A DNA stretch of 64,000 nt from Flavobacteriaceae bacterium. GTDB taxonomy: Bacteria; Bacteroidota; Bacteroidia; Flavobacteriales; Flavobacteriaceae. Within the stretch, counting starts at the first letter, position 1. Each line of letters starts with the position of its first letter. A program made the position numbers and the translations under genes. The DNA lies in contig JANSXF010000019.1 of the NCBI GenBank assembly GCA_024743095.1, positions 1 through 64,000 on the forward strand, in the 5' to 3' direction. The notes under the pieces were generated by a model. It was not told the origin of the DNA, searched no databases, and saw only the letters and a program-made list of their open reading frames with translations. Of the stretch, positions 10,941 to 14,419 are shown piece after piece.

Positions 10941-12734
10941 TTACTTATGAAAGGTTTTATAAATTTTTTTGGCCTTTGATGCCCCCACCGAGGCCGTCAA
11001 TGTTTCGAGGGACGCTTCTTTGATTCGCTTTACCGACTTAAAGCTTTTTAATAATTGTTCGGCGGTTTTTTCTCCTACTCCATCAATATTAACCAATTCT
11101 GAACCAATCGCGCCCTTGCTTCGTTTGTTTCTGTGGTGGGTTATCCCAAACCTGTGTGCCTCGTTCCGTAGTTGCTGGATTATCTTTAGGCTTTCCGACC
11201 GTTTGTCGAGGTACAAGGGCACAGGATCATCCGGAAAATAAATTTCCTCCAAGCGCTTTGCTATACCGATGATAGCTATTTTCCCACGTAATCCCAACAC
11301 TTCCAAGCTTTTTAAGGCCGAGGACAACTGTCCCTTCCCCCCATCGATCACAATTAGTTGAGGAAGGGGTTCCTCTTCGTTCAGCAACCTTTTGTACCTA
11401 CGGAAGACCACCTCCTCCATACTGGCAAAATCATCGGGCCCTTCCACCGTTTTTATATTGAAGTGGCGATAATCCTTTTTGGAGGGCTTGCCGTCCTTAA
11501 AAACCACACATGCCGCAACAGGATTGCTGCCCTGAATGTTGGAGTTATCAAAACATTCGATATGCCGTGGCTCTTGCGACAACCGCAAATCCGATTTCAT
11601 TTGGGCCATGATCCGTTTAGTGTGGCGGTCAGGATCGGTTATCTTGATCTGTTTCAGCCTATCTTGACGGTAAAACCTTGCGTTACGTTCGGAGAGATCT
11701 AAAATCCGGCGTTTGTCGCCCAGTTTTGGGAGAGCCACCTTTACCTCATCCTCTACCGTAACGGGGAAGGGCAGATATACTTCCTTGGATTTTGAATTGA
11801 ACCGCTGCCGCAGCTCCGTTATTCCCAATTGCAGCAATTCCTCGTCCGTTTCGTCCAACTTCTTTTTAATTTCCAAGGTGTGGGACCGAATTATGGCGCC
11901 ATGTGAAATCTGTAAAAAGTTCACATATCCGTGGGTTTCATCAGAAATAATGGTGAACACATCCACATTGTTGATCTTAGGGTTCACCACCGTGGATTTT
12001 GCCTGGTAATTCTCCAGCACATCAATTTTATCCTTCACCCGTTGCGCCTTTTCAAACTCCATCTCCTCTGCATACTCCTTCATTTGATGCTTAAAGGTCT
12101 GAATGGAATCCTTTAAATTGCCCTTGATGATCTGCCGGATATCTTCAATTTGCCCGTGATACTCCTGCTCTGTTTGAAAACCTTCACAGGGGCCCAAGCA
12201 ATTGCCCAAATGGTAATCCAGGCATACCTTGTACTTTCCTGCGTCTATTTTTTCTTCGGACAAGTCATAGTTGCAAGTACGCAAGGGATACAGACTTTTG
12301 ATAAGGTCCAAGAGCGTCCTAACCGTTTTCATGCTGGTATAGGGCCCAAAATACTCCGAGCCGTCCTTGATCAATTTTCTTGTGGAGAACACCCTTGGAA
12401 AACGTTCATTTTTGATACAAATCCAAGGATAGGATTTGTCGTCCTTAAGGAGCACATTGTACCTGGGCAACAATTTTTTGATGAGATTGTTCTCCAACAA
12501 CAGGGCGTCCGATTCGGTAGGGACCACAATATGCTTTATGGAATCGATTTTCTTGACCAATACCCTTGTCTTTCCATACTCCTGCTTTTTATTGAAATAG
12601 GAAGAGACCCTCTTTTTCAGGTCTTTGGCCTTGCCCACGTATAGGATCTTGCCGTCCGCATCATAAAACTGGTACACTCCCGGGTTATTGGGAAGTGCAC
12701 TTAACTGTACTTTCAAGGACGTAGATTTGGACAT
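10941..12734 (-). CDS. uvrC: Excinuclease ABC subunit C
   Basis: LPNNPGVYQFYDADGKILYVGKAKDLKKRVSSYF (GIY-YIG), CLDYHLGNCLGPCEG, IECFDNSNIQGSNPVAACVVFKDG, C-terminal HhH. Confidence 0.97.
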   Translation of the reverse strand: MSKSTSLKVQLSALPNNPGVYQFYDADGKILYVGKAKDLKKRVSSYFNKKQEYGKTRVLVKKIDSIKHIVVPTESDALLLENNLIKKLLPRYNVLLKDDKSYPWICIKNERFPRVFSTRKLIKDGSEYFGPYTSMKTVRTLLDLIKSLYPLRTCNYDLSEEKIDAGKYKVCLDYHLGNCLGPCEGFQTEQEYHGQIEDIRQIIKGNLKDSIQTFKHQMKEYAEEMEFEKAQRVKDKIDVLENYQAKSTVVNPKINNVDVFTIISDETHGYVNFLQISHGAIIRSHTLEIKKKLDETDEELLQLGITELRQRFNSKSKEVYLPFPVTVEDEVKVALPKLGDKRRILDLSERNARFYRQDRLKQIKITDPDRHTKRIMAQMKSDLRLSQEPRHIECFDNSNIQGSNPVAACVVFKDGKPSKKDYRHFNIKTVEGPDDFASMEEVVFRRYKRLLNEEEPLPQLIVIDGGKGQLSSALKSLEVLGLRGKIAIIGIAKRLEEIYFPDDPVPLYLDKRSESLKIIQQLRNEAHRFGITHHRNKRSKGAIGSELVNIDGVGEKTAEQLLKSFKSVKRIKEASLETLTASVGASKAKKIYKTFHK

Positions 12735-13002
12735 AGGTAGCTCTAAAAGTGAACTGTTTCTTGACGTAAGAACAAAGGTATATTTTAAATGTCGTGTTTT
12801 TTGTTAAACTTGATGAATTCCAATTTTGCATTGATATTTGGCCTCTTTCAATTTATACTTTTTAAATGGTGCTAAAAAGATGAACAAAAAATAAAATATC
12901 TCATCTTAATGTCAATTGGGGATTTACTACAAAAAAACCAAGGTAAACACACAGTCAATTATTTGATAACCAACAAAATCTGTTAAACAGTTGCTAAAAA
13001 AC

Positions 13003-13032
13003 GTGCATTTCACCGATAAAAAGTGCATTTCA
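13003..13032. repeat. Pair of 10-bp direct repeats GTGCATTTCA, 20-bp period
   Basis: GTGCATTTCA at 13003-13012 and 13023-13032, separated by CCGATAAAAA. Confidence 0.85.
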
Positions 13033-13084
13033 TGGTAAACCTTTCAAATGTTTTACTTACATTTAACCGTATAATTACAATCCT

Positions 13085-13174
13085 ATGGAAAACTATATTA
13101 TCGTTTTGGGAATGTACCTGATTTTGATGCTTTTCTTCAAAATCTTTTTCTCCGTTGCAACAAAAGGAGAGTAG
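13085..13174 (+). CDS. Putative 29-aa single-pass membrane small protein
   Basis: ATG...TAG encodes MENYIIVLGMYLILMLFFKIFFSVATKGE; preceded by AT-rich TATAATTACAATCCT; in a 480-bp gap between divergent uvrC and FTHF cyclo-ligase. Below the ORF-track length cutoff. Confidence 0.5.
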   Translation: MENYIIVLGMYLILMLFFKIFFSVATKGE

Positions 13175-13217
13175 TAGTCCATTTCCCCAAAAACAACCCT
13201 AAAATCTTCAACAGTTA

Positions 13218-13781
13218 ATGTTGAAACATGAACTAAGAAAAAAATACAAAGATCTGAGAGCGGAAATTTCTCCAATGCAAGCCTCGGATTTTAGTTTGGC
13301 ATTGGCCAATAGTTCACTTCAAATCCCGATATGGGATTTTTTTTATTACCATATCTTTTTAAGCATCGAGGACAAGAACGAAGTGGACACCTTACCGTTG
13401 ATTACTTTGTTGCAAGGCAAGGACAAAAATATAGTCGTTCCCAAAGTCATCGCCAGCAACATTTTGGAAAACTACTTGCTTACGGATAATACTGCTTTTA
13501 AAAAAAGTGCCTGGGGGGTTCCGGAACCAGTGGAAGGCATAGAGGTGCCTGAGAATAAAATCGATGTGGTCTTTGTTCCCTTGTTGGCTTTTGATACGAT
13601 GGGAAACCGCGTAGGATATGGAAAAGGGTTTTATGACGGCTTTTTAAATAAATGCCGTAAGGAAACACTTAAGATCGGCCTATCGTTCTTCGGTGCCGAA
13701 CCGGAGCTTATAACCGATGTGCATGAAAACGATATAAAACTGGACTACTGTATTACCCCACAAAAGGTTTATACGTTCTGA
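13218..13781 (+). CDS. 5-formyltetrahydrofolate cyclo-ligase
   Basis: LRKKYKDLRAEIS N-terminus; DVVFVPLLAFDTMGNRVGYGKGFYDGFL. Confidence 0.93.
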   Translation: MLKHELRKKYKDLRAEISPMQASDFSLALANSSLQIPIWDFFYYHIFLSIEDKNEVDTLPLITLLQGKDKNIVVPKVIASNILENYLLTDNTAFKKSAWGVPEPVEGIEVPENKIDVVFVPLLAFDTMGNRVGYGKGFYDGFLNKCRKETLKIGLSFFGAEPELITDVHENDIKLDYCITPQKVYTF

Positions 13782-14419
13782 TCGGCGTTCTCTTCTTTTT
13801 TATCCGCCTGCTTTGGAAATGCCTTTTTATTGAATACGATCAAAATACCCACTCCTGTACTTATTGCCGTATCCGCAATGTTGAACACGGGTTCAAAAAA
13901 CCGGAAGCGCTGTCCTCCCACGGACGGCACCCAATCGGGCCAAGTGGTATCCACCAATGGAAAGTAGAGCATATCCACTACCTTGCCATGAAACAAGCTT
14001 CCATAGGGCCGATCGGCAAATAATGTCGCCACCTGTCCATTGCTATGGTCAAAAATAATCCCGTAGAAAACCGAATCGATGATATTGCCCACTGCCCCTG
14101 CAAAGATCAGAGAAACCGCCAAAATCAAGGTTCGTGGCGACTGTTTTTTAATGATATCCCACAACCAATAACCTATCCCAAAAACTGCAAAAATCCTAAA
14201 AATGGTCAATATCAATTTTCCAACAGGTTCGGATATGGGCAAAAGGTCGCTTAACTTGGTTCCCCAGGCAGCCCCTTCGTTCTCTATAAACAAGATTTTG
14301 AACCAACTGAACACTTCGTGGGCCTCTCCCAATATAAAACTGGTCTTGATATAGATCTTGCTGATCTGATCCACTACTAGAATCAGTGCGATGATAATAA
14401 GGGACTTCTTTAAACTCAT
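13769..14419 (-). CDS. lspA: Lipoprotein signal peptidase
   Basis: VVDQISKIYIK, ENEGAAWG, GAVGNIIDSVFYGIIFD, FNIADTAISTGVG. Confidence 0.95.
   Translation of the reverse strand: MSLKKSLIIIALILVVDQISKIYIKTSFILGEAHEVFSWFKILFIENEGAAWGTKLSDLLPISEPVGKLILTIFRIFAVFGIGYWLWDIIKKQSPRTLILAVSLIFAGAVGNIIDSVFYGIIFDHSNGQVATLFADRPYGSLFHGKVVDMLYFPLVDTTWPDWVPSVGGQRFRFFEPVFNIADTAISTGVGILIVFNKKAFPKQADKKEENADQNV

Follow-up and report, generated by a model that had tools for sequence, protein, structure and literature searches.

A conserved short open reading frame before fcl in Flavobacteriaceae is predicted to encode a single-pass membrane microprotein

Among described systems, the closest to the gene considered here are three small proteins with a single membrane helix. 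KdpF is a membrane peptide of ~30 amino acids that is co-transcribed with kdpABC (PMC3618439), YohP is a 27-amino-acid single-transmembrane (TM) protein of Escherichia coli that is recognised by SRP (PMC7549839) and AcrZ is a small protein with one TM segment that modulates the AcrB pump (PMC7267776). Our literature search found no paper on a pair formed by such a small gene and fcl in Flavobacteria.

We analysed a 64,000-nucleotide stretch of DNA (the window; contig JANSXF010000019.1, positions 1 to 64,000) from a Flavobacteriaceae genome whose nearest named relatives are Flagellimonas/Allomuricauda. A preliminary description had proposed that a 29-amino-acid open reading frame (hereafter the smORF) encodes a small protein with one TM helix. 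The comparative analysis supports this proposal, given that the frame is kept in the 75 loci examined and is under purifying selection. The features to which we refer are the following.

10941–12734, minus strand: uvrC, the divergent neighbour and a marker of the conserved position.
13004–13021, plus strand: distal promoter repeat, TGCATTTCACCGATAAAA (family form TGCATTTCATCGATAAAA).
13024–13035, plus strand: proximal promoter repeat, TGCATTTCATGG, a half-copy 20 bp after the distal copy.
13058–13065, plus strand: TACATTTA, a likely −7 box that fits TAnnTTTG and is conserved upstream of the smORF.
13085–13174, plus strand: smORF, MENYIIVLGMYLILMLFFKIFFSVATKGE, 29 amino acids, a predicted single-pass membrane microprotein with a conserved frame in 75 syntenic loci.
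13207–13225, plus strand: hairpin TTCAACA-GTTAA-TGTTGAA, extending over the fcl start codon.
13218–13781, plus strand: fcl, 5-formyltetrahydrofolate cyclo-ligase (PF01812, 1.6e-26), second gene of the presumed smORF–fcl operon.
13769–14419, minus strand: lspA (signal peptidase II), the convergent neighbour past fcl.

The smORF frame runs from ATG to TAG and reads exactly MENYIIVLGMYLILMLFFKIFFSVATKGE. It lies inside the gap between the starts of uvrC (12734) and fcl (13218), which measures 483 bp and agrees with the ~480 bp given earlier. ORFs of 29 amino acids are by themselves expected by chance, and the ORF list of the window holds many of them; the smORF is set apart from these because a protein search finds a match in 37/37 genomes of the genus and because synonymous changes far outnumber amino-acid changes. 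The peptide has a single hydrophobic segment of membrane-spanning length (residues 4–24), with a best 19-residue Kyte–Doolittle mean of 2.42 on hydropathy only, consistent with the one hydrophobic helix described before; in a distant member of the family, the maximum 19-residue mean is 1.73. Position 2 is acidic and lysines occupy positions 19 and 27 near the C terminus, so that the peptide is probably oriented N-out/C-in on a positive-inside reading.

A profile search of 301 Flavobacteriaceae genomes identified the smORF in 47 genomes at E ≤ 1.1e-4, and synteny confirmed a further, weaker hit (G264), which brings the total to 48 genomes in 41 of the ~237 sampled genera. We examined 75 loci (29 from the genus and 46 from other genera; L010, another locus of the genus, is not counted among them, as the smORF was not located on its short contig). 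The order uvrC (−)/smORF/fcl (+)/lspA (−) is found in all 75, with fcl always directly downstream of the smORF, and the genome of the window holds one convincing copy. Samples of the order and the phylum yielded no convincing homologue outside the family; hits at E ≤ 0.02 outside Flavobacteriaceae were rejected as noise, being partial matches, some with internal stops. On a tree of Fcl, the carrier state needs 1–2 changes (26 with shuffled labels). Given that this tree is weakly supported at depth, a single origin is likely but unproven; the origin was likely single, or nearly so, and was followed by vertical inheritance. Across much of the Flavobacteriaceae, the smORF is inherited as a unit together with the promoter element and the position in front of fcl.

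Non-carriers show other arrangements. In those examined, fcl usually follows a gene of ~320–350 amino acids at a distance of only a few bases (L140–L167 and L229–L255), and a minority have other neighbours upstream of fcl. One of the upstream genes was scanned and is of the AstE_AspA type (PF24827); shared C-terminal sequence suggests that the remaining ~320–350-amino-acid genes belong to the same type.

The check on relatives that had been proposed with the original description, frame conservation together with a synonymous-substitution analysis, returned a fixed start, a length of 27–31 residues (28 in 50/75 loci) and purifying selection. Within the genus (29 loci), pN is 0.016 and pS 0.40 (pN/pS 0.04; dN/dS ~0.03); comparisons between genera give a pS of 0.90, at which synonymous sites are saturated, and a pN of 0.13 (pN/pS 0.14). 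Conservation starts at M1, spans the entire hydrophobic stretch and fades at the C terminus, and Y4, Y11 and M15 are invariant among 45 distinct smORF sequences from other genera. The fixed start, the constant length and synonymous saturation with low pN thus mark the smORF as a selected protein-coding gene; we regard this comparative evidence as decisive for a genuine gene encoding a selected protein of ~28 residues. The helical moment of entropy across smORF positions did not reveal a significantly conserved helix face (p = 0.43), and hence lends no support to a partner-binding surface. Codons 7–10 (GTT TTG GGA ATG; window positions 13103–13114) show zero synonymous change in the 29 genus genomes.

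A longer form of the gene may exist in one other genus, g98. Two g98 genomes (L159 and L222/L241) carry an ORF of 58–61 amino acids that either ends directly before the fcl start or overlaps it, and that combines an N-terminal hydrophobic stretch similar to the smORF with a basic C-terminal tail; in one of the two, uvrC and lspA are arranged as at smORF loci. The N termini (MDYYLIALAIYFVLF and MNYYIIALALYSVVF) bear a weak likeness to the smORF profile (E = 0.0014 and 0.033 in a search of 186 ORFs), which is insufficient as sequence evidence, and it is the position that supports homology with the smORF. Long forms of this type were sought elsewhere and were convincing only in genus g98.

The region upstream of the smORF was described beforehand as holding a direct-repeat pair and a promoter-like sequence, and both hold up. 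Their conservation alongside the smORF, like its constant position in front of fcl, goes beyond that description. The repeat pair is real (AAAACGTGCATTTCA/AAAAAGTGCATTTCA, 12998–13032, 20 bp apart), and TACATTTA at 13058–13065 resembles the Bacteroidetes −7 box, which has the consensus TAnnTTTG, as for Flavobacterium sigma-A (PMC9723704, PMC6847099). With TACATTTA as the −7 box, the proximal repeat would lie at about −41, and transcription is predicted to start near 13070, ~15 nt before the ATG. With up to 2 mismatches allowed, the family form TGCATTTCATCGATAAAA is found in all 29 loci of the genus and in 39 of the 46 from other genera (68/75), ~80–85 nt before the smORF ATG, and the second half-copy follows at a spacing of 20 bp in 29/29 genus loci and mostly 21 bp in other genera. 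The element is absent from shuffled sequences and from genomes that lack the smORF. The surprise relative to shuffles is somewhat overstated because the consensus was derived from the same sequences, whereas the source of the consensus has no bearing on the lack of the element in non-carriers or on its constant spacing. The direct repeats are the best conserved non-coding feature of the locus.

LytTR domains recognise direct repeats of 9 bp, separated by a spacer of 12 bp (PMC2766830) and thereby two turns apart, beside the promoter. Operators of this type (AgrA, SilA) share with the smORF repeats a promoter-proximal pair of ~9–10-bp elements at 20–21 bp from start to start, but for the sequence of the smORF repeat, TGCATTTCAT, we found no counterpart among described sites. 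Judged solely by the geometry of the site, the candidate regulator of the smORF promoter is most likely LytTR-type. A genome-wide search for the complete tandem operator returned the smORF site only, which leaves the single repeat as the sole means of tracing a regulon. The single repeat has 31 matches in the genome at ≤3 mismatches (2 for a reversed control), a good part of them intragenic. Some of the intergenic repeats (among L191, L194, L196, L200, L202, L207, L216 and L219) look tandem and precede genes of secreted or surface type (a subtilase-like protein, lipoproteins and a T9SS-type protein) or a 55-amino-acid membrane ORF, with identities read by eye. Further upstream, at ~12915–12945 of the window, an inverted-repeat-like block (GGTTTTTCC..AAAAAAACTATGGAAAA in relatives) is kept in much of the genus; its minus strand holds a −7-like TAGTTTTT, and the block may be the uvrC promoter.

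Downstream of the smORF, predicted RNA structure around the fcl start differs modestly between carriers and non-carriers. In Flavobacterium johnsoniae, structure in the initiation region tunes translation (PMC6847099). z-scores against shuffles, calculated for sequences that are related to one another, point to extra folding in this region among carriers, with −1.37 ± 0.14 for the genus and −0.97 ± 0.16 for the other genera. Non-carriers, at −0.15 ± 0.19, show no such excess. The sequence and the stems vary by genus: the genus itself has the hairpin TTCAACA/TGTTGAA, and in several of the other genera the start codon of fcl lies within GTTTAATCG/CGATTAAAC. In the genus, smORF codons 7–10 can pair with a C-rich block before fcl (13180–13194; z −1.47 ± 0.12), a pairing that was not seen in other genera (z −0.02). 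The smORF stop mostly lies 33–73 nt before the fcl start. Structure and codon pairing would suit translational control of fcl, with modest effects drawn from related sequences.

We hold, with somewhat better than even confidence, that the smORF encodes a trans-acting single-pass inner-membrane microprotein that is co-expressed with Fcl. The smORF and fcl would form an operon of two genes, led by the smORF, and a dimeric regulator, most likely LytTR-type, would switch transcription of the pair from the tandem repeats beside the −33 region. The peptide would insert N-out/C-in in the inner membrane and pack against a larger membrane protein in trans, tuning its stability or activity (compare KdpF and AcrZ). 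This reading draws on the spread and constant order of the loci, the purifying selection, the conservation from M1 through the hydrophobic span, the clustered distribution on the tree, the promoter repeat that accompanies the gene, the g98 form next to fcl and the LytTR-like geometry of the site. Counted against it are the non-significant helical periodicity of conservation, together with the permanent linkage to fcl and the carrier-specific structure at the fcl start, both of which also suit a leader that acts in cis. Such a leader peptide, the translation of which would set fcl output through the hairpin over the fcl start, is the main rival, which we entertain tentatively; the hydrophobic peptide would perhaps draw the mRNA to the membrane, or pause the ribosome. 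It would account for a smORF always immediately 5′ of fcl, for the structure excess confined to carriers, for the synonymously invariant codons 7–10 of the genus with their capacity to pair with the C-rich block and for the longer g98 ORF that terminates at or inside the fcl start. However, the z-scores on its side derive from related sequences, the C-rich block pairing is confined to the genus, the smORF stop and fcl are probably too far apart for the hairpin to be opened by a ribosome that terminates on the smORF, and a search for a terminator-like site found none. Moreover, the entire TM segment is conserved and the C terminus is the most variable part, a pattern from which arrest peptides differ. 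A membrane-acting helix thus fits better than a stalling peptide, and for this reason we favour the trans-acting microprotein.

Other readings carry less weight. It seems rather unlikely that the peptide is a clade-defining link between one-carbon folate metabolism and the membrane, recruiting or regulating Fcl or a membrane folate-dependent process; the long g98 form would then act through its added cytoplasmic tail, and the reading would draw on the dedicated tandem-repeat promoter and on the placement of fcl beside uvrC in this clade, rather than in the AstE_AspA-type operon of most other genera. That the smORF encodes a TisB-like peptide that damages the membrane, in stress or as the toxin of a type I toxin–antitoxin system, possibly linked to DNA damage through the divergent uvrC, is improbable: the size and hydrophobicity resemble those of TisB-class peptides and the promoter element is conserved, but type I toxins tend to have a patchy distribution and often occur in several copies, whereas here a single convincing copy in the genome of the window goes with a strict locus and vertical inheritance in 41 genera that cluster on the tree. 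Rfam has no match within 12700–13900, although an undescribed antisense RNA would escape it. The same lack of an Rfam family speaks against a non-coding region, conserved as a promoter or as a regulatory RNA and containing the open frame by accident, which we consider highly improbable even though the upstream DNA is also conserved and codons 7–10 are constrained beyond the protein in the genus; substitutions concentrate at synonymous positions, start and length are fixed, and third positions are saturated between genera while the protein is nearly constant. In E. coli, 6S RNA precedes ygfA/fau; with no Rfam match at the locus, 6S RNA is excluded as an explanation here.

A 28-residue protein with so little change across dozens of genera, and with a conserved promoter element of its own, is almost certainly useful to its carriers. 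With 90 bases, the smORF offers a small, genetically tractable target for studying a lone membrane helix beside a folate enzyme, and the conserved repeat suggests a regulator for which the genome holds as many as ~30 candidate single-repeat sites.

Comparison with known families returned no smORF match in the PDB or, at E ≤ 10, in Pfam or NCBIfam, whose models of such short proteins are insensitive; PHROG 26544 (E = 0.018 over 20 residues) was set aside as too weak for a hydrophobic peptide. The smORF family is new to the copies of Pfam, NCBIfam and PDB that were searched, and single-TM microproteins are an already known class. Relative to KdpF, the smORF differs in its neighbours (uvrC, fcl and lspA, with no kdp genes) and in matching no Pfam or NCBIfam family, but shares the length of ~28–30 amino acids, the single hydrophobic helix and the form of a small operon gene. 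YohP belongs to another organism group and genomic context, and no sequence relation to it emerged; the two have in common the size class, the single TM segment and likely the same insertion problem. AcrZ is longer than the smORF peptide and no sequence match between them was found, but it provides the model for a lone helix that modulates a large membrane protein.
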